Source: Mycolicibacterium doricum
Lineage (GTDB): Bacteria; Actinomycetota; Actinomycetes; Mycobacteriales; Mycobacteriaceae
Reading direction: 5' to 3'
Assembly (NCBI RefSeq): GCF_010728155.1
Contig: NZ_AP022605.1
Span: 62,001-126,000, forward strand
Length of the DNA stretch: 64,000 nt
Numbering within the stretch: the stretch's first letter is position 1; the number at the start of each line of letters is the position of its first letter. The translations under genes and the position numbers were made by a program. The notes beneath the pieces were generated by a model. That model saw only the letters and a program-made list of their open reading frames with translations. It made no database searches and was not told the origin of the DNA. Of the stretch, positions 4,137 through 53,003 are shown piece by piece.

Positions 4137-4181
4137 TGCTTTCTGAATCGTTGCTTTCTGAATCGTTGCTTTCTGAATCGT
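4137..4181. repeat. 15-bp perfect tandem repeat, three copies, upstream of pckG
   Basis: Three identical copies of TGCTTTCTGAATCGT begin at 4137, 4152 and 4167, in the 229-bp gap before pckG. The unit is AT-richer than its surroundings and not a palindrome. The remaining gap shows no obvious promoter that I would defend. Confidence 0.97.
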
Positions 4182-4349
4182 TCTTGTGAGTCAACGGACA
4201 CAGATCCGAATTCCTTCGGGTACGTCACCCACGTTAACCTCGGAAACAAGGGACGACCGTGATCGCCGTTGATCTCGTCATCGGCGGCGTCATCGTGGGC
4301 CTGCGTCCTGGGGAGAACCTAGTGCGGGAAGATGCAGGAGAATCACAAA

Positions 4350-14755: not shown

Positions 14756-14830
14756 CCTCCCCACGGTGCCCCTCCCCACGGTGCCCCTCCCCACGGTGCC
14801 CCTCCCCACGGTGCCGCTTCCCCACGGTGC
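14756..14830. repeat. 15-bp tandem repeat, four perfect copies plus a fifth degenerate
   Basis: CCTCCCCACGGTGCC is repeated at 14756, 14771, 14786 and 14801; a variant follows to about 14830. It lies between the CsbD-like gene and the fadE pair. Frames through it exist on both strands but give low-complexity peptides, so I treat it as non-coding. Confidence 0.95.
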
Positions 14831-14922: not shown

Positions 14923-15933
14923 CTACGGCCCGACAAGCACATCCCACGGGTCGCCGGCGGACAATGCGAGCCGTCCCAGCTCGCGGGCGTGCCGAGCGGT
15001 GGGGCCGAAGTCGTCGACCCAACCGCGGGCTCGCATCGTGGACAGCCACAGGGGGTGTTCGACCGTGACGCCGATCGCCCCGTGCAACTGATGGGCGATC
15101 GTGGTGACCGGTTCGACGGCGCGCCCGACGGTCACTTTGGCAACGGTCACCGCATAGTGCGTTGCGGGCGCGCCGAATCCGTACTGGGCGGCCGCCGCGA
15201 CGGCGAGCTCCGTGGTGGCGCGTGCACGTTCGACCTCGCCGGCCATGGCCGCGAGCGCATGCTGGACGGCCTGGAACTTGCTCAGTGACCGGCCGAACTG
15301 GACCCGATCACGGGTGTGGGTGGCGGTCAGGTCGGCGGCGGCGTCGAACGCGCCGACGGTCTGGACGCACCGTGCCCACGCGCCACGCCGCATCAACTCG
15401 TCGGTGAACGCCGGATCTAGCCGGACGCAGGCGTTCTCGGCGACGTCGACGGTGACCTCACCCCGTGGCTCACCGGCCAGGTCCATCCCGTCGACGATCA
15501 CCGGATCGTCGAGCGCCGAAACGTAGAGGGCTTCGGCTGAGCGCACGGCAGCCACCACCGTCGCGTCACGCGGCCACGGCACCCGGTGTGCGGCACCGAC
15601 GACCCGCCCGTCGCTGACCGTGCCCGCGCACACGGCCACGGTCAGCGGACCGGAAGCGGGTACGTCGACGCCGGCCTGACGGGCCAGCCATGCGGCCAGG
15701 AGATCGGTCTCGGCCGCCGGCACGGCGGCACTGCGCCGCGCGAGGCCGGCCAGCACGACCGCCGACTCGGCGGGTCCGGCGCCCTCTCCGGTGGTCAAGC
15801 GGCTCAGACCGGTCTCCTCGAGGTGGCGCCACAGAGCGGCGTCGAAGGTTTCCGGGCGGGTGCGCTGACCCATCCGCGCGTCATACGAGCGGCGCGCCAG
15901 ATTGTCGACCAGGACGCGTAATTCGGCGCTCAT
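14923..15933 (-). CDS. Acyl-CoA dehydrogenase, small subunit type
   Basis: A 336-residue protein of the acyl-CoA dehydrogenase fold, shorter and more divergent than a classical FadE. The N-terminal domain is reduced; the C-terminal four-helix region is recognisable (TRDRVQFGRSLSKFQAVQHA, then QLHGAIGVTVEHPLWL). The Arg and Gln positions in DRVQFGRSLSKFQ normally touch FAD. The catalytic-Glu C-terminal motif is absent. Small, divergent FadEs paired with a second FadE occur in actinobacterial heteromeric enzymes such as the steroid side-chain dehydrogenases, so an alpha2beta2 complex with the upstream gene is inferred. ATG 15933 overlaps the last mini-ORF of the 32-bp repeat array by ATGA. Confidence 0.85.
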   Translation of the reverse strand: MSAELRVLVDNLARRSYDARMGQRTRPETFDAALWRHLEETGLSRLTTGEGAGPAESAVVLAGLARRSAAVPAAETDLLAAWLARQAGVDVPASGPLTVAVCAGTVSDGRVVGAAHRVPWPRDATVVAAVRSAEALYVSALDDPVIVDGMDLAGEPRGEVTVDVAENACVRLDPAFTDELMRRGAWARCVQTVGAFDAAADLTATHTRDRVQFGRSLSKFQAVQHALAAMAGEVERARATTELAVAAAAQYGFGAPATHYAVTVAKVTVGRAVEPVTTIAHQLHGAIGVTVEHPLWLSTMRARGWVDDFGPTARHARELGRLALSAGDPWDVLVGP

Positions 15934-16061
15934 CGGTGTCCTCGGCTCTTCGCGCAAGCGCTCATCGGTGCCCTCGGCTCTTCGCGCAAGCGCTCATCGG
16001 GGTTGTCGGCTGTTCGCGCAAGCGCTCATCGGTGCCCTCGGCTCTTCGCGCAAGCGCTCAT
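15926..16061. repeat. 32-bp tandem array carrying four overlapping 11-codon mini-ORFs
   Basis: The GCGCTCAT landmark recurs at 15926, 15958, 15990, 16022 and 16054, exactly 32 bp apart. Read on the minus strand, each unit has GAGG(G/A)CACCG before ATGAGCGC. From ATG 16061, 16029, 15997 and 15965 run frames of 11 codons (MSACAKSRGHR, with one copy MSACANSRQPR). Each TGA overlaps the next ATG as ATGA. The first ATG overlaps the stop of the upstream fadE, and the last stop overlaps the start of the downstream fadE. The unit thus carries a ribosome site plus a start codon. Confidence 0.95.
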
Positions 16062-17215
16062 CGCGCTCCCAGCCCGCGGGCCACCACGTCTCGTAACACC
16101 TCATTGGTCCCGCCGCGCAGGGTGAACAACGGGGAGTGCAGGCGGCCCGTGGCCAGCAAGCCGCGCAACCGGTCAGCCTCGGGCGCGTGCTCGTCGAGGT
16201 AGGTGAGCAGATCGGCGACGATCTCCACCGACTCCTGTTCGAATCTGGTGCCCAGGTCCTTCACCAACGCCGCCCTGGTGTTCGCGTCACGCCCTTCGGA
16301 GAGCTCACGCGCCACCGAGATCGACAGCTGCCGCAGCGATACCATTCGGGCCATCAGGTCGCCCACCTCGGCGGTGGTGCGCTCGTCGACGTCGCCACGC
16401 CCGAGGGCGGCCAGCGCCTCGAACACCAGCGTCGCCGTCGACAGGATCCGTTCCGGGCCGCTGCGCTCGAATCCAAGTTCGGCCGTCACCTGGCGCCATC
16501 CGTTCCCGATCTCACCGAGCACATCGGCGTCCGGGACGAACACCCCGTCGAACAGCACCTCGTTGAAGTGGTGTTCGCCGTTCATCAGCACGATCGGGCT
16601 GATCGTCACCCCGGGTGAGTCGGTCCGGACGATGAATTGGCTCAACCCGGCGTGCCGGTGGTCACGGTCGACGGGGGCCGTGCGCGCCAGCACCACGACC
16701 TGGTCGGCGACGTGGGCTCCGCTGGTCCACACCTTCGTCCCGTCGATCCGCCAGCCGCCGCGGACCTCGGTGGCGCGAGTGGCAACCGCCGCCAGGTCCG
16801 AACCGGCTCCGTGTTCGCTCATCCCGATCGCGGAGGACAACCGGCCCGCGGCGATGCGGGGCAGCAGTCGACGGCGCTGTTCCTCGCTGCCGTACGTCAG
16901 CAGTCCGGGCGCCACCTGCCGGTCGGCGATCCAGTGCGCGGCGACGGGCGCGCCGTGTGCCAGCAGTTCCTCGGTCACCACGTAGCGGTGCAGATGCCCG
17001 ACCCCGTGCCCGCCGTACTCGGTGGGGATGGTCAGGCCGACGAACCCGGCCTCGGCCAGCCGCACGCTGAACTCCGGATCCCACGCCGCCAGCCAGCAGT
17101 CGACGGCCGGCTGCCAGCCGTACGCCGCGCGATCGGCGGCCAGGAACTCCCGGATCGACGTCCGCAACGTCGCCAGGCCGTCGTCGTTGGCGCACAGCGC
17201 CTCGAATTCACCCAC
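16058..17215 (-). CDS. Acyl-CoA dehydrogenase, large subunit type (FadE)
   Basis: A 385-residue acyl-CoA dehydrogenase. Landmarks: GFVGLTIPTEYGGHG, AIGMSEHGAGSDLAAV (substrate/FAD loop), KVWTSGAHVADQ, and GNGWRQVTAELGFERSGPER. The C-terminal motif reads LRGGTNEVLRD: the position that carries the catalytic Glu in MCAD-type enzymes is Gly368. The Glu in the GFERSGPER region may serve instead, as in isovaleryl-type and heteromeric enzymes; this is inference. Its stop overlaps the first mini-ORF of the 32-bp array, so it is coupled to the smaller FadE downstream. GTG 17215 is used as start; no strong ribosome site was seen. Confidence 0.88.
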   Translation of the reverse strand: MGEFEALCANDDGLATLRTSIREFLAADRAAYGWQPAVDCWLAAWDPEFSVRLAEAGFVGLTIPTEYGGHGVGHLHRYVVTEELLAHGAPVAAHWIADRQVAPGLLTYGSEEQRRRLLPRIAAGRLSSAIGMSEHGAGSDLAAVATRATEVRGGWRIDGTKVWTSGAHVADQVVVLARTAPVDRDHRHAGLSQFIVRTDSPGVTISPIVLMNGEHHFNEVLFDGVFVPDADVLGEIGNGWRQVTAELGFERSGPERILSTATLVFEALAALGRGDVDERTTAEVGDLMARMVSLRQLSISVARELSEGRDANTRAALVKDLGTRFEQESVEIVADLLTYLDEHAPEADRLRGLLATGRLHSPLFTLRGGTNEVLRDVVARGLGAR

Positions 17216-42508: not shown

Positions 42509-44544
42509 GAGCCCCTCCTTGCCGGGTGGTTGGCGAGCTCCTCGTCGGTGAAGTACTTTTCGAGTTCTTCGATGTCCAGCAGCTCGAGCAGGTCGTCTCG
42601 CATCGGGACCTGGTCTTCTTTGGTGACGGTGACGCTCGGTATGACTATGTCGTCGTCCTCGGCCCGGCACACCAGCAGCGTCTTGCGCCAGCCCGCCGCC
42701 ATCGCCGGGTAGTCGTCGCGGGTGTGGCCGCCGCGGCTTTCGGTGCGCTCCAGCGCCGCCTTGGCCACGCACTCGCTGACCAGCAGCATGTTGCGCAGGT
42801 CGATGGCCAGGTGCCAGCCGGGGTTGAAGTGCCGGTTGCCCTCGACCTTCATACGCTTGAACCGTTGCCGCAGTTCATCGAGTTTGCTCTGGGCCTCGGT
42901 GATCTCGTCGGCCTTGCGGATGATCCCGACCAGCTCGTTCATGGTGTCCTGCAGGTCGAGCTGCAACGTGTAGGGGTTTTCCGGTTCGCCGTCGCTCGGC
43001 CCGTCGAACGGGGCCAGCGCGAGCCCCCTGGCCTCATCGACCGCCTCGTCCGACACCGCCGGCCGGTCGCCGAGCGCCCGCACGTAGTCCGAGGCGCCCA
43101 GCCCGGCGCGGCGACCGAATACCAGAAGGTCCGACAGCGAATTGCCACCCAGCCGGTTCGACCCGTGCATACCGCCCGCGCACTCGCCGGCGGCGAACAA
43201 CCCGGGGGTCTTGGCGGCGCCGGTGTCCGGGTCCACCTCGATCCCCCCCATCACGTAGTGGCAGGTGGGACCGACCTCCATCTCGTCGGTGGTGATGTCG
43301 ACCTCGGCGAGCTCCATGAACTGGTGGTACATCGACGGCAGCCGGCGCTTGATCTCCTCGGAACTCATCCGCGACGCGATGTCGAGGTAGACGCCACCGT
43401 GCGGGGTGCCGCGACCCTCCTTCACCTCGGTGTTGATGGCGCGGGCCACCTCGTCGCGGGGCAGCAGGTCAGGGGTGCGGCGCGCGGAGTCGTTGTCCTT
43501 GAGCCACTGGTCGGCCTCGTCCTCGGACTCGGCGTACTGGCCCTTGAACACGTCGGGGATGTAGTCGAACATGAACCGCTTGCCGTCGGAGTTCTTCAGC
43601 ACCCCGCCGTCACCGCGCACACCCTCGGTGACGAGAATGCCTTTTACGCTGGGCGGCCACACCATTCCGGTGGGGTGGAACTGGATGAACTCCATGTTGA
43701 TCAGCGTGGCGCCGGCGCGCAACGCCAGGGCGTGCCCGTCACCGGTGTACTCCCACGAGTTCGACGTGACCTTGTACGCCTTGCCGATCCCGCCCGTGGC
43801 GAGCACGATCGCCGGTGCGTCGAAGAGGATGAAGTTGCCGCTCTCGCGCCAGTAGCCGAACGCGCCCGCGATCCGACCCGGTCCTTCCCCCGTCGCTCCG
43901 CTCGCCCCCGGTCCTGCCCCCGTCGCTCCGCTCGCCCCCGGTCCTGCTCCCGTCGCTCCGCTCGCCCCCTTATCCAAGATCAGGTCGGTGACCGTGCACT
44001 CGGCGAACACCCTGATGCGGGCCTCGTAGTCGCCGAGCTCCTCCTTGTCCTCCTGCTGCAGTGAGACGATCTTCTGCTGCATGGTGCGGATGAGCTCCAG
44101 GCCGGTGCGGTCACCGACGTGGGCCAGCCGCGAGTAGGTGTGCCCACCGAAGTTGCGCTGGCTGATCCGGCCGTCTTTCGTGCGGTCGAACAGTGCACCG
44201 TAGGTCTCGAGTTCCCACACCCGGTCGGGTGCCTCCTTGGCGTGCAGCTCGGCCATCCGCCAGTTGTTGAGGAACTTGCCGCCGCGCATGGTGTCGCCGA
44301 AGTGCACCTGCCAGCTGTCCTTCGGGTTGGTGTTGCCCATCGACGCGGCGCAACCCCCCTCGGCCATCACCGTGTGCGCCTTGCCGAACAGCGATTTGCA
44401 CACCACGGCGACCTTCAGGCCCCGCTCACGCGCCTCGATCACCGCTCGCAGACCCGCACCGCCGGCACCGATCACGACCACGTCGTACTGGTGCCGTTCG
44501 AGCGGCGACGAGCCGCTTGCGCGAAGAGCATCGAGCTCAGTCAT
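42505..44544 (-). CDS. sdhA: Succinate dehydrogenase flavoprotein subunit (Rv0248c-like)
   Basis: A 679-residue flavoprotein oxidising succinate to fumarate (or the reverse). FAD site: YDVVVIGAGGAGLRAVIEA; covalent-FAD His region: MAEGGCAASMGNTNPKDSW, HFGDTMRGGKFL; substrate loop: FIQFHPTGMVWP, GVRGDGGVLKN; C-terminal RNMLLVSECV. It differs from a normal protein by a 30-residue Gly/Ala insertion of three GASGATGAGP units after LILDKG, from a 30-bp repeat. The N-terminal DALRASGSS segment also derives from a repeated 16-mer. Length without the insertions is close to the family norm. It is cotranscribed between sdhC-like and sdhB. Confidence 0.95.
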   Translation of the reverse strand: MTELDALRASGSSPLERHQYDVVVIGAGGAGLRAVIEARERGLKVAVVCKSLFGKAHTVMAEGGCAASMGNTNPKDSWQVHFGDTMRGGKFLNNWRMAELHAKEAPDRVWELETYGALFDRTKDGRISQRNFGGHTYSRLAHVGDRTGLELIRTMQQKIVSLQQEDKEELGDYEARIRVFAECTVTDLILDKGASGATGAGPGASGATGAGPGASGATGEGPGRIAGAFGYWRESGNFILFDAPAIVLATGGIGKAYKVTSNSWEYTGDGHALALRAGATLINMEFIQFHPTGMVWPPSVKGILVTEGVRGDGGVLKNSDGKRFMFDYIPDVFKGQYAESEDEADQWLKDNDSARRTPDLLPRDEVARAINTEVKEGRGTPHGGVYLDIASRMSSEEIKRRLPSMYHQFMELAEVDITTDEMEVGPTCHYVMGGIEVDPDTGAAKTPGLFAAGECAGGMHGSNRLGGNSLSDLLVFGRRAGLGASDYVRALGDRPAVSDEAVDEARGLALAPFDGPSDGEPENPYTLQLDLQDTMNELVGIIRKADEITEAQSKLDELRQRFKRMKVEGNRHFNPGWHLAIDLRNMLLVSECVAKAALERTESRGGHTRDDYPAMAAGWRKTLLVCRAEDDDIVIPSVTVTKEDQVPMRDDLLELLDIEELEKYFTDEELANHPARRGS
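43880..43969. repeat. 30-bp tandem repeat, three copies, inside sdhA
   Basis: Units begin at 43880, 43910 and 43940, nearly identical, and contain GTCGCTCCGCTCGCCCCC. On the minus strand they add three decapeptides, GASGATG(A/E)GP, to the flavoprotein without shifting the frame. Confidence 0.96.
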
Positions 44545-46704: not shown

Positions 46705-49317
46705 ATGCTGTCAACGAAGAACGTCGTGGTCGTCGGCCACGGCATGGTCGGGCACCGGTTCGTCGAAGCGCTGCGTGCGCGCGACGACGCGGGTGCCTGG
46801 CGGGTCACCGTGCTCGCCGAGGAAACCGACGCCGCCTACGACCGGGTGGGTCTGACCGGGTACACCGAGCACTGGGACCGCGCGCTGCTGGCGCTCGCCG
46901 GCAACGACTACGCCGGCGACGACCTGGTCGACCTGCGCCTGGGGCAGCGGGTCACCTCGATCGACCGAGACGCCGGCACCGTGACGACTGCCGACGGGAC
47001 GACGGTCGGCTACGACGCGCTGGTGCTGGCGACCGGTTCGTACGCCTTCGTGCCGCCGGTGCCCGGGCGCGACCTACCCGCCTGTCACGTCTACCGCACG
47101 TTCGACGACCTCGACGCGATCCGTGCCGACGCAGCCCGCGCACACGAGAGAAACCGCGCACCGGTTGGCGTCGTCATCGGTGGTGGTCTGCTCGGCCTGG
47201 AGGCCGCGAACGCGTTGCGTGGGTTCGGGCTTACCGCCCATGTCGTGGAGCGGTCGCCGCGCCTGATGTGCCAACAACTCGACGACGCGGGCGGTGCGCT
47301 GCTGAGCAGGATGATCGCCGATCTTGGCATCGAGGTCCACCTCGACGTCAGCACCGAGGCGATCGCACCGGCGCAGCGCAACCGGCCACTGCGGCGTTCC
47401 CGAGAGGACGACTCGCTACGGGTGATTCTGGGCGACGGGTCGTTCATCGACGCGGGCGTCGTGGTCTTCGCTGCCGGGGTCAGACCGCGCGACGAGCTCG
47501 CCCGTGACGCGGGGCTGCAGACCGCCGAGCGCGGCGGCGTGCTCACCGACCTGGGCTGCCGCACCAGCGATCCCAACATCTATGCGGTGGGCGAGGTCGC
47601 CGCGATCGAGGGCCATTGCTACGGGCTGGTGGGTCCGGGCTACACGAGCGCCGAAGTGGTGGCCGACCGGCTGCTGGGTGGGGCCGCGGAGTTCCCCGAG
47701 CCCGACATGTCGACCAAGCTCAAGTTGCTCGGCGTCGACGTGGCGAGCTTCGGCGACGCGATGGGGCAGACCCCGGACTGCCTCGAGGTGGTGGTCAACG
47801 ACGCGGTCAACCAGACGTACGCCAAGCTGGTGCTCTCCGACGACGCCAAGACGCTGCTCGGCGGAGTGCTGGTCGGCGACGCTTCGGCGTACGGCGTGCT
47901 ACGGCCGATGATCGGCGAGCAACTGCCGGGTGACCCCATGGCGCTGATCGCGCCCGCCGGTTCGGGCGGCACCGACGGCGGGCTGGGCGTCGGCGCACTG
48001 CCCGCGGCCGCGCAGATCTGCTCGTGCAACAACGTCACCAAGGGTGACGTCACGGACGCTATCGCCGACGGCTGCTGCGACGTCGCCGGGCTCAAAGCGT
48101 GCACCAAGGCAGGCACGTCGTGCGGATCGTGTGTCCCGCTGCTCAAACAACTGCTCGAGGCCGAGGGCGTCGAGCAGTCGAAGGCGTTGTGCGAGCACTT
48201 CGCTCACTCGCGCGCGGAACTGTTCGAGATCGTCTCTGCCACGGCGATCCGCACGTTCTCCGGACTACTCGAGCGCTTCGGCACCGGGAAGGGTTGCGAC
48301 ATCTGTAAACCCACCGTCGCATCGATCCTCGCATCGACCAGCTCCGAGCACATCCTCGACGGCGAACAGGCCGCGCTACAGGACTCCAACGACCACTTCC
48401 TGGCCAATATCCAACGCAACGGCAGCTATTCGGTGGTGCCGCGGGTGCCGGGCGGCGACATCACTGCCGAACAACTGATTCTGATCGGCGAGATCGCCCG
48501 CGACTTCGACCTGTACACGAAGATCACCGGCGGCCAGCGGATCGACCTGTTCGGTGCCCGTGTGGAGCAGCTGCCGGAGATCTGGCGCCGGCTCGTCGAG
48601 GGTGGGATGGAGTCGGGCCACGCCTACGGCAAGGCGCTGCGCACCGTGAAGAGCTGCGTGGGCAGCGACTGGTGCCGGTACGGCCAACAGGATTCGGTCC
48701 AGATGGCGATCAACCTGGAACTGCGCTACCGGGGCCTGCGTGCCCCGCACAAGATCAAGATGGGTGTCTCGGGGTGCGCCCGCGAATGCGCGGAGGCGCG
48801 GGCCAAGGACGTCGGCGTCATCGCCACCGAGCACGGCTGGAATCTGTACGTAGGCGGCAACGGCGGAATGACCCCCAAGCACGCTCAGCTGCTCGCCGGC
48901 AACCTCGACGACGAGACCCTGATCCGCTACATCGACCGGTTCCTGATGTTCTACATCCGCACCGCGGATCGCCTGCAGCGCACCGCTCCGTGGGTGGAAC
49001 AACTGGGACTGGACCACCTGCGCGAAGTCGTCTGCGAGGACTCCCTCGGTCTGGCAAGAGAATTCGAGACGGCGATGGCAAGTCACGTCGAGGGCTACGC
49101 GTGCGAGTGGAAGGGGGTGCTCGAAGACCCGGACAAGCTGTCGCGATTCGTGTCCTTCGTCAACGCGCCTGATGTGCCCGACCCCACCGTCGCCTTCACC
49201 GAGCACGCCGGCCGCAAGGTGCCGGTTCAGATGGGAATGCCCACCGTCCGCCCCATTGAGGAGGCCCCGATTGAGGAGACCCCGATTGAGGAGACCCCGA
49301 TTGAGGAGACACTGTGA
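46705..49317 (+). CDS. nirB: NADH-dependent nitrite reductase large subunit NirB
   Basis: An 870-residue assimilatory nitrite reductase reducing nitrite to ammonium. Domains in order: FAD/NAD(P)-binding halves (NVVVVGHGMVGHRFVEAL, VGVVIGGGLLGLEAANALRG); a BFD-type [2Fe-2S] segment with Cys439, 441, 466/473/476 (ICSCNNVTKGD, KACTKAGTSCGSC); the sulfite/nitrite reductase ferredoxin-like repeat; and the siroheme-[4Fe-4S] site, CVGSDWC (651, 657) plus GCAREC (691, 695). ATG 46705 is used; the frame runs further upstream over hsp20. The C-terminus carries four IEE(A/T)P-like pentads from a 15-bp repeat. It overlaps nirD by GTGA. Confidence 0.96.
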   Translation: MLSTKNVVVVGHGMVGHRFVEALRARDDAGAWRVTVLAEETDAAYDRVGLTGYTEHWDRALLALAGNDYAGDDLVDLRLGQRVTSIDRDAGTVTTADGTTVGYDALVLATGSYAFVPPVPGRDLPACHVYRTFDDLDAIRADAARAHERNRAPVGVVIGGGLLGLEAANALRGFGLTAHVVERSPRLMCQQLDDAGGALLSRMIADLGIEVHLDVSTEAIAPAQRNRPLRRSREDDSLRVILGDGSFIDAGVVVFAAGVRPRDELARDAGLQTAERGGVLTDLGCRTSDPNIYAVGEVAAIEGHCYGLVGPGYTSAEVVADRLLGGAAEFPEPDMSTKLKLLGVDVASFGDAMGQTPDCLEVVVNDAVNQTYAKLVLSDDAKTLLGGVLVGDASAYGVLRPMIGEQLPGDPMALIAPAGSGGTDGGLGVGALPAAAQICSCNNVTKGDVTDAIADGCCDVAGLKACTKAGTSCGSCVPLLKQLLEAEGVEQSKALCEHFAHSRAELFEIVSATAIRTFSGLLERFGTGKGCDICKPTVASILASTSSEHILDGEQAALQDSNDHFLANIQRNGSYSVVPRVPGGDITAEQLILIGEIARDFDLYTKITGGQRIDLFGARVEQLPEIWRRLVEGGMESGHAYGKALRTVKSCVGSDWCRYGQQDSVQMAINLELRYRGLRAPHKIKMGVSGCARECAEARAKDVGVIATEHGWNLYVGGNGGMTPKHAQLLAGNLDDETLIRYIDRFLMFYIRTADRLQRTAPWVEQLGLDHLREVVCEDSLGLAREFETAMASHVEGYACEWKGVLEDPDKLSRFVSFVNAPDVPDPTVAFTEHAGRKVPVQMGMPTVRPIEEAPIEETPIEETPIEETL
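49255..49314. repeat. 15-bp tandem repeat, four copies, at the nirB C-terminus
   Basis: ATTGAGGAGACCCCG-type units begin at 49255, 49270, 49285 and 49300, ending at the overlap with nirD. Each adds a pentapeptide IEE(T/A)(P/L); AGGAGA inside the last unit also serves as the nirD ribosome site. Confidence 0.95.
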
Positions 49318-52889: not shown

Positions 52890-52944
52890 CCGAGCCATTG
52901 CCGAGCCATTGCCGAGCCATTGCCGAGCCATTTCCGGGCCATTG
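52890..52944. repeat. 11-bp tandem repeat, five copies, between narK and hemD
   Basis: CCGAGCCATTG at 52890, 52901 and 52912, then variants at 52923 and 52934. It lies in the 151-bp gap between narK and the hemD fusion. 11 bp equals about one helical turn, so bound proteins would sit on one face. Confidence 0.93.
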
Positions 52945-53003
52945 CCGTCGCTGCCGGTGTGGACAGGCCGACACCATTGTCGTCCTGTCCACGGATCCGG
53001 TGG

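Follow-up and report, generated by a model that had tools for sequence, protein, structure and literature searches.

A 32-bp tandem array between two fadE genes of Mycolicibacterium doricum as the probable product of local expansion of a dispersed hairpin repeat resembling MIRUs

The window analysed here, a stretch of 64,000 nucleotides (nt) of Mycolicibacterium doricum (contig NZ_AP022605.1, positions 62,001 to 126,000), carries on its minus strand, between two acyl-CoA dehydrogenase (fadE) genes, an array of four 32-bp units that start at positions 16061, 16029, 15997 and 15965. The 32-bp unit is a member of a dispersed repeat family and not a device specific to fadE, and the array is most probably a local tandem expansion of this repeat, a hairpin reminiscent of the mycobacterial interspersed repetitive units (MIRUs), which preserves the coupling of the two genes rather than setting the ratio of their products. 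Each unit is an 11-codon frame whose terminal TGA overlaps the ATG of the next unit, and the array spans exactly the distance from the stop codon of the upstream fadE to the start codon of the downstream fadE at 15933. This architecture had been described in an earlier reading of the letters alone (the sequence-only reading) and was confirmed by re-reading of the frames and by Tandem Repeats Finder (TRF), which gave a period of 32, 4.3 copies, 89% matches and a score of 234 (Table 1). The same reading had assigned the motif GAGG(G/A)CACCG to every unit; three of the four have it, whereas unit 2 reads GACAACCCCG, so that the unit after unit 2 is without this Shine-Dalgarno (SD)-like motif.

The dispersal of the family is evident at several scales. 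Within the window, the 17-nt core gives five matches at up to three mismatches, compared to 0.70 expected and a shuffle maximum of 4. The 21-nt head occurs 48 times at up to three mismatches, in 25 clusters, on the whole 4,029,398-base contig, and the reversed control gives 0 matches. A shorter 16-mer at two mismatches yields 65 matches in the same genome versus 11 for its reversed control, showing that chance hits do arise with short patterns. A 19-mer at two mismatches has at least one match in 29 of 37 genomes of the genus and in 8 of 24 others (37 of 61 overall), although some lone hits outside the genus may be due to chance and one genome (G047) also has one control match. Across the order, the 20-nt form at one mismatch matches 51 of 298 genomes and its reversed control none; it is absent from all 20 genomes searched from other genera of the same family, and families f2, f6 and f12 of the order include multi-copy genomes. 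In M. doricum itself, further arrays are found between nuoK and nuoL (four copies, L117), between pairs of ABC-transporter permease genes (four copies in L121 and two in L130) and immediately 5′ of ftsZ, about 170 nt past ftsQ (four copies, L128). The gene names at these arrays were taken from NCBIfam and Pfam profiles, the FtsQ match lying under the NCBIfam cut-off and over that of Pfam. Copies in such unrelated operons rule out a fadE-specific device. In the part of the open-licence PubMed Central literature that was searched, no description of the repeat was found, and an exact search with the 17-mer returned 0 papers; within that body of text the family is without prior description, and the array itself is an ordinary member at an ordinary gene pair.

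Comparison of corresponding junctions showed that both the presence and the copy number of the element vary between relatives. Among 27 related fadE loci (L031-L057), copies are carried by four, namely L031 (one), L046 (four), L048 (two) and L056 (two), and 23 show no copy; three of the 27 junctions were read by eye instead of by the stop-finding script, and none of these three has an array. In L032, of which the upstream protein is 89% identical, the fadE junction is a bare GTGA overlap. The other 53 loci of the relative set gave a hit in L079 only. At nuoL, the core was found in 3 of 30 loci (four copies in G000, two each in G013 and G018), with the script reading of the nuoK stop being rough for distant genomes. 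The sequence-only reading had suggested that the array originated when an ATGA overlap was expanded by a mobile short repeat, and this origin is supported by the dispersed family together with the empty, one-, two- and four-copy states of related loci.

The rules of position and phase were derived from 97 distinct arrays, comprising the listed places in G000, G036, G019, G027, G033, G041, G003 and G037, the top loci of G026, G004 and G007, and the four fadE loci; copies lacking TG at positions 2-3 were dropped, as were arrays close to a locus end. In 72 of the 97, the stop of the upstream gene coincides with one of two fixed positions in the first unit, the first ATGA or a TGA two bases earlier. 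More specifically, for upstream open reading frames (ORFs) of at least 70 codons the stop is at +1 in 45 arrays, at −2 in 27 and elsewhere within 12 nt in 6. A downstream start is located 20-60 nt from the last unit in 70 arrays, and in 53 of these the distance is one less than a multiple of three (3n−1). An exact overlap between the stop of the last mini-ORF and the downstream start is seen in 44 of the 97, and in 13 the last frame runs more than 60 codons further. Compared to GATGA sites of the same loci that do not belong to the element, the arrays more often close an upstream ORF (74% versus 26%) and more often combine an upstream ORF stop with a downstream start (45/97 versus 10/240 control sites); the 3n−1 phase among both-sided sites is 45/55 for arrays and 8/27 for controls. 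The 88 spacings between units (26, 29, 30, 31, 32, 33 or 35) are of the 3n−1 type in 50 cases, 3n in 37 and 3n+1 in one, and the 49 multi-copy arrays contain only 3n−1 spacings in 29, only 3n in 17 and a mixture in 2. In all 17 of the 3n arrays, the first frame is open through to the last unit. The earlier statement that each repeat forces a stop and a restart consequently cannot be extended to a rule of the family. Outside the 97 arrays, L227 (G000:C1:1360212 onward) consists of seven 34-bp units of an extra-C variant, GATGAGCCGCTTGCGCGAAGAG, in each of which an internal TGA lies one base before the next ATG.

The coexistence of 3n−1 arrays and fused 3n arrays suggests that what is kept is an uninterrupted passage into the next gene, whether through restart or through fusion, rather than the number of restarts. 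It is mostly the final-junction phase that is retained, and junction continuity seems to be conserved. A mechanism could be outlined in which a copy landed at an NTGA where stop and start overlap, or else carried in or duplicated the NTGA itself; further copies would then have been added by slippage, and purifying selection would have kept those phases that let a terminating ribosome restart (3n−1) or read on (3n), the mini-peptides being by-products. The remade stop-start junction would probably let translation continue undisturbed. The sequence-only reading had instead considered a tunable translational relay, in which each unit would cost a fraction of the reinitiating ribosomes and the copy number would set the ratio of the FadE subunits. 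The series of exact ATGA overlaps that leads from the upstream stop to the downstream start, the copy numbers of 1, 2 and 4 among related loci and the presence of an SD-like GAGG in three units out of four are in keeping with such a relay. However, the occurrence of the family in unrelated operons, the 23 related fadE loci lacking any copy and the single fused frame of the 17 multi-copy arrays with only 3n spacings all argue against it. In addition, the fadE pair resembles the chains of two-subunit dehydrogenases. The top Protein Data Bank (PDB) matches of the upstream protein are Tcur3483 (6wy9, 6wy8), followed by 4x28 chain A. The downstream protein has matches to the corresponding partner chains, Tcur3481 (6wy8) over residues 24-301 and 4x28 chain D over 27-321, but lower E-values are given by shorter matches to other dehydrogenases. 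The 6wy8/6wy9 and 4x28 complexes are two-subunit heterotetramers, and for such a pair balanced synthesis of both subunits would be expected. A setting of the FadE ratio by copy number is therefore unsupported, and the relay appears very unlikely.

Conservation within the unit appears to follow a hairpin and not codons. The conserved part of approximately 20-22 nt has the form (N)GATGAGCGC-NN-GCGCGAAGA(N′), and the tail after this head is largely common within an array and differs between loci. The founder hairpin of the fadE array is composed of an outer C-G pair, G/A oppositions, a T-A pair, further G/A oppositions, a GCGC/GCGC stem and a TT loop; the G/A and A/G oppositions between Watson-Crick pairs could be read as tandem sheared G·A pairs. 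Among 82 first copies, 81 have G at position −1. The −2/20 pair is C-G, T-A or G-C in 77 of these copies (shuffled mean 39.8, maximum 54), and positions −3 and 21 pair in 51 (shuffle maximum 48). In an alignment (A2) of 82 sequences, the distinct first copies together with two of the ACGA type, 93.7% of cells are paired; covariation scores 0.217 versus 0.088, a value reached by none of 500 shuffles and lower with slid partners. Two weaker measures, pairs in which both partners changed and further pair types, were reached by 39 and 212 of the 500, respectively, and the shuffles do not remove the relatedness of the copies. In the two ACGA-type arrays (L244 and L245, ACGAGCGC...GCGCGAGGA), the T2-A17 pair has undergone a compensatory change to C-G, both bases having changed together, and the start ATG is thereby lost.

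Variation in the head lies in the loop (positions 9 and 10) and at positions 20 and 21, irrespective of codon position, so that the mini-peptides are not under evident coding selection. A function of the 11-residue peptides themselves might be suspected from MSACAKS, the commonest seven-residue start (72 of 185 units), but there is no third-codon-position bias, substitutions at positions 10 and 20 change the encoded residue, and the ACGA-type arrays are without an ATG. On these grounds functional peptides were rejected, and their probability can be regarded as close to nil; small ORFs at the junctions of coupled genes, it should be cautioned, need not be functional peptides. Strong conservation at the nucleotide level could also be expected of a regulatory RNA hairpin or a protein-binding site governing each operon. 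This seems highly improbable, given that the element is only patchily present at corresponding junctions, that its target operons are unrelated and that pairing is relaxed in later copies. Furthermore, the sole Rfam match is at chance level (12.2 bits versus a cut-off of 39), and membership in an Rfam family was rejected.

First and later copies differ in the outer pair: of 97 first detected copies, 92 have a Watson-Crick pair at −2/20, compared to 58 of 88 later ones. Where −2 is T and an upstream ORF was found, the T belongs to the TGA of that gene in 27 of 27 cases. A relative without an array (L299) already reads CACTGATG at the end of nuoK, indicating that the base in question can belong to the target. 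The stronger pairing of first copies suggests that a match of base 20 to the target perhaps mattered on arrival of the first copy; alternatively, the founder pairing could have been inherited with subfamilies of the element. Among 20 arrays of other families (f2 and f12), the founder pair is Watson-Crick in 18 and T-G in the remaining two, and a downstream start lies within 110 nt in 19, of which 15 are 3n−1 by our own reading of the list. In one f12 array, L319, two ORFs are separated by nineteen units spaced at exactly 32 bp, and in the f2 loci L312-L317 and L320-L324 the hairpin lies within a composite unit of 75-93 bp with a GAGCGAGGAGCGGAGCGA-like middle, present in two copies before a gene. 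The tail and the upstream flank are identical at 435 of 994 positions in 71 arrays (shuffle mean 338). A target-site duplication is not put forward, since in at least L134 and L201 the identity apparently stems from an earlier unit that has decayed. In L113, the end of the upstream gene recurs in the array tail.

A more far-reaching picture may be offered tentatively, and we hold it to be possible rather than probable. The family could be a stop-codon-seeking mobile mini-repeat, an approximately 20-nt hairpin whose 3′ arm would pair through base 20, and partly 21, with the last bases of the upstream gene; it would insert at NGATGA or TGATGA, rebuild both overlaps and spread almost free of cost by means of some enzyme, replacing MIRUs in MIRU-poor mycobacteria and reaching distant families of the order. 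The properties that make the family unusual are the target-complementary first copy, the siting at stop codons and the near-exclusion of MIRUs.

As a candidate for the enzyme, a Y1 transposase was considered, that is, an origin of the element from repetitive extragenic palindromic (REP) or IS200/IS605 sequences moved by a RAYT-like protein. The hairpin with its covarying outer pair and the complementarity to flanking bases, strong in first copies and weaker later, as for guide/target pairing, are compatible with this origin, as are nine Y1 matches, some of them fragments, in the M. doricum genome. However, Y1, present in 12 of the 61 genomes, does not track the element: within the genus it occurs in 5 of 17 genomes with at least 10 copies, leaving 12 copy-rich genomes without it, and in 5 of 20 with fewer, and it is absent from G026 (99 matches), G004 (79), G007 (54) and G020 (44), of which G004 and G007 are incomplete. 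Moreover, none of three motifs searched was present at five Y1 loci of M. doricum (L277-L281). A Y1/IS605 origin was rejected on this basis and seems unlikely. The five Y1 loci have near-identical flanks and are of the IS605 type by our own reading; in L279-L281, the upstream end carries a CCCCTGC(C/T)TTCAGG...GGGGG hairpin.

Several observations weigh against the interpretation of the array as a coupling-preserving expansion of a mobile hairpin. The 97 arrays are not a random sample, and the kinship of copies inflates the counts. No nearby upstream ORF stop was found in 19 of them, and no ATG or GTG start of a long ORF 20-60 nt past the last unit in 27; in the f2 and f12 arrays, the upstream stop is at the two fixed positions in only 9 of 20. 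A lenient simulation of a ribosome chain was passed by 67 of 70 arrays, but also by 68 and 60 of 70 after one or two bases, respectively, had been inserted; as real and shifted arrays were not separated, the simulation was not used as evidence. The hairpin is supported by covariation and unsupported by folding energies, which for four RNA and three DNA hairpins and for the array were no better than those of shuffles. Where exactly the insertions begin and end is uncertain by a few bases, and no mobilising enzyme was found, with Y1 failing to follow the element among the genomes of the genus.

The array and its flanking genes are listed in Table 1. Elsewhere in the window, a diverged relative of the element (GACGAGCCGCTTGCGCGAAGAGC) without an ATG lies at 44507-44529 on the plus strand, near the end of a convergent ORF. 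A 15-bp tandem repeat (CCTCCCCACGGTGCC) of 4.9 copies occupies 14756-14830, in the stretch past the second fadE, and other tandem repeats are found at 43877-43969 (30-bp unit), 49251-49310 (15 bp), 52890-52947 (11 bp) and 4137-4182 (15 bp).

Table 1. Features of the fadE-fadE junction (window coordinates)
Feature	Position	Strand	Basis
Upstream fadE, acyl-CoA dehydrogenase, 385 aa; TGA overlaps the unit 1 ATG	16058..17215	-	ORF; PF02771, PF02770
Founder hairpin C-GATGAGCGC-TT-GCGCGAAGA-G (positions −2 to 20)	16042..16063	-	covariation over first copies; folding energy not above shuffles
Array of four 32-bp units	15934..16061	-	sequence reading and TRF
Unit 1, founder position, MSACAKSRGHR; TGA overlaps the unit 2 ATG	16030..16061	-	translation
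Unit 2, MSACANSRQPR; without GAGG; one hairpin-arm change, AAGA to AACA	15998..16029	-	translation
Unit 3, 11-codon frame MSACAKSRGHR	15966..15997	-	translation
Unit 4, MSACAKSRGHR; TGA overlaps the downstream fadE ATG	15934..15965	-	translation
Downstream fadE-like partner, 336 aa; start ATG 15933	14923..15933	-	ORF; PF00441, PF08028

The junction can be compared to three known systems. Termination-reinitiation coupling of the ATGA type is the subject of PMC6728339, and the fadE array has the same stop/start overlap geometry, although in the array inserted repeats have multiplied this overlap. The resulting natural series, from 0 to 19 copies and from 26- to 35-bp units, could be used for measuring ribosome reinitiation through successive stops. 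With the REP/REPIN palindromes and their RAYT transposases, the comparison lies in a dispersed, putative hairpin of approximately 20 nt at gene ends, single or in tandem. The element differs from them in its GATGA foot, in place of the GTAG-type foot of those palindromes, in its location in stop/start overlaps and in that no link with Y1 transposases was found among the 61 genomes.

The closest parallel is provided by the MIRUs, which, according to the review PMC12548453, citing Supply 1997, have start codons as their insertion sites, with a −4 coupled ORF; the 77-bp MIRU-VNTR (variable-number tandem repeat) locus 580 is placed at senX3-regX3 in PMC9392950. In relatives, MIRU-type arrays with 53-, 77- and 101-bp units, all 3n−1 lengths, were found at this junction (L171-L175, L178, L180-L182, L185 and L186), and a bare ATGA overlap in L167, L179 and L184. 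The array could be taken for a true MIRU of the 53/77/101-bp family, with which it has the niche and the 3n−1 overlap logic in common, as well as a short CGCTTGC...GAGC match to the 77-bp form. However, the alignment scores of the 32-bp head with MIRU units are within those of shuffles, the best score being reached by 175 (77 bp), 1350 (53 bp) and 440 (101 bp) of 2000, and the M. doricum genome has 0 MIRU-core hits and only 15 nt, without an element, between the SenX3 stop and the RegX3 start (L135). Homology with MIRUs was rejected on the shuffle-level scores and the lack of core hits, and a true MIRU is quite unlikely. Across the 37 genomes of the genus, at least 10 copies of the element occur in 17 and at least 10 MIRU cores in 11, but both only in G017 (Spearman −0.45, p 0.006, uncorrected for phylogeny). 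Where MIRUs are scarce, arrays of the element could yield loci for strain typing.

Collectively, these data point to a second repeat family that uses the MIRU trick of occupying the overlap of coupled genes and breaking neither gene, without significant similarity to MIRUs; the element would work like a MIRU, but it is not filed as one, the two families nearly excluding each other across genomes. Like MIRUs, the 32-bp family is short, interspersed and tandem in a mycobacterial genome, places a small ORF that overlaps the flanking genes at NTGA, and combines variable copy number with 3n−1 lengths. Unlike MIRUs, it has mostly 32-bp units and a covarying hairpin with G/A oppositions, and it is found mainly in MIRU-poor genomes and also in other families of the order.
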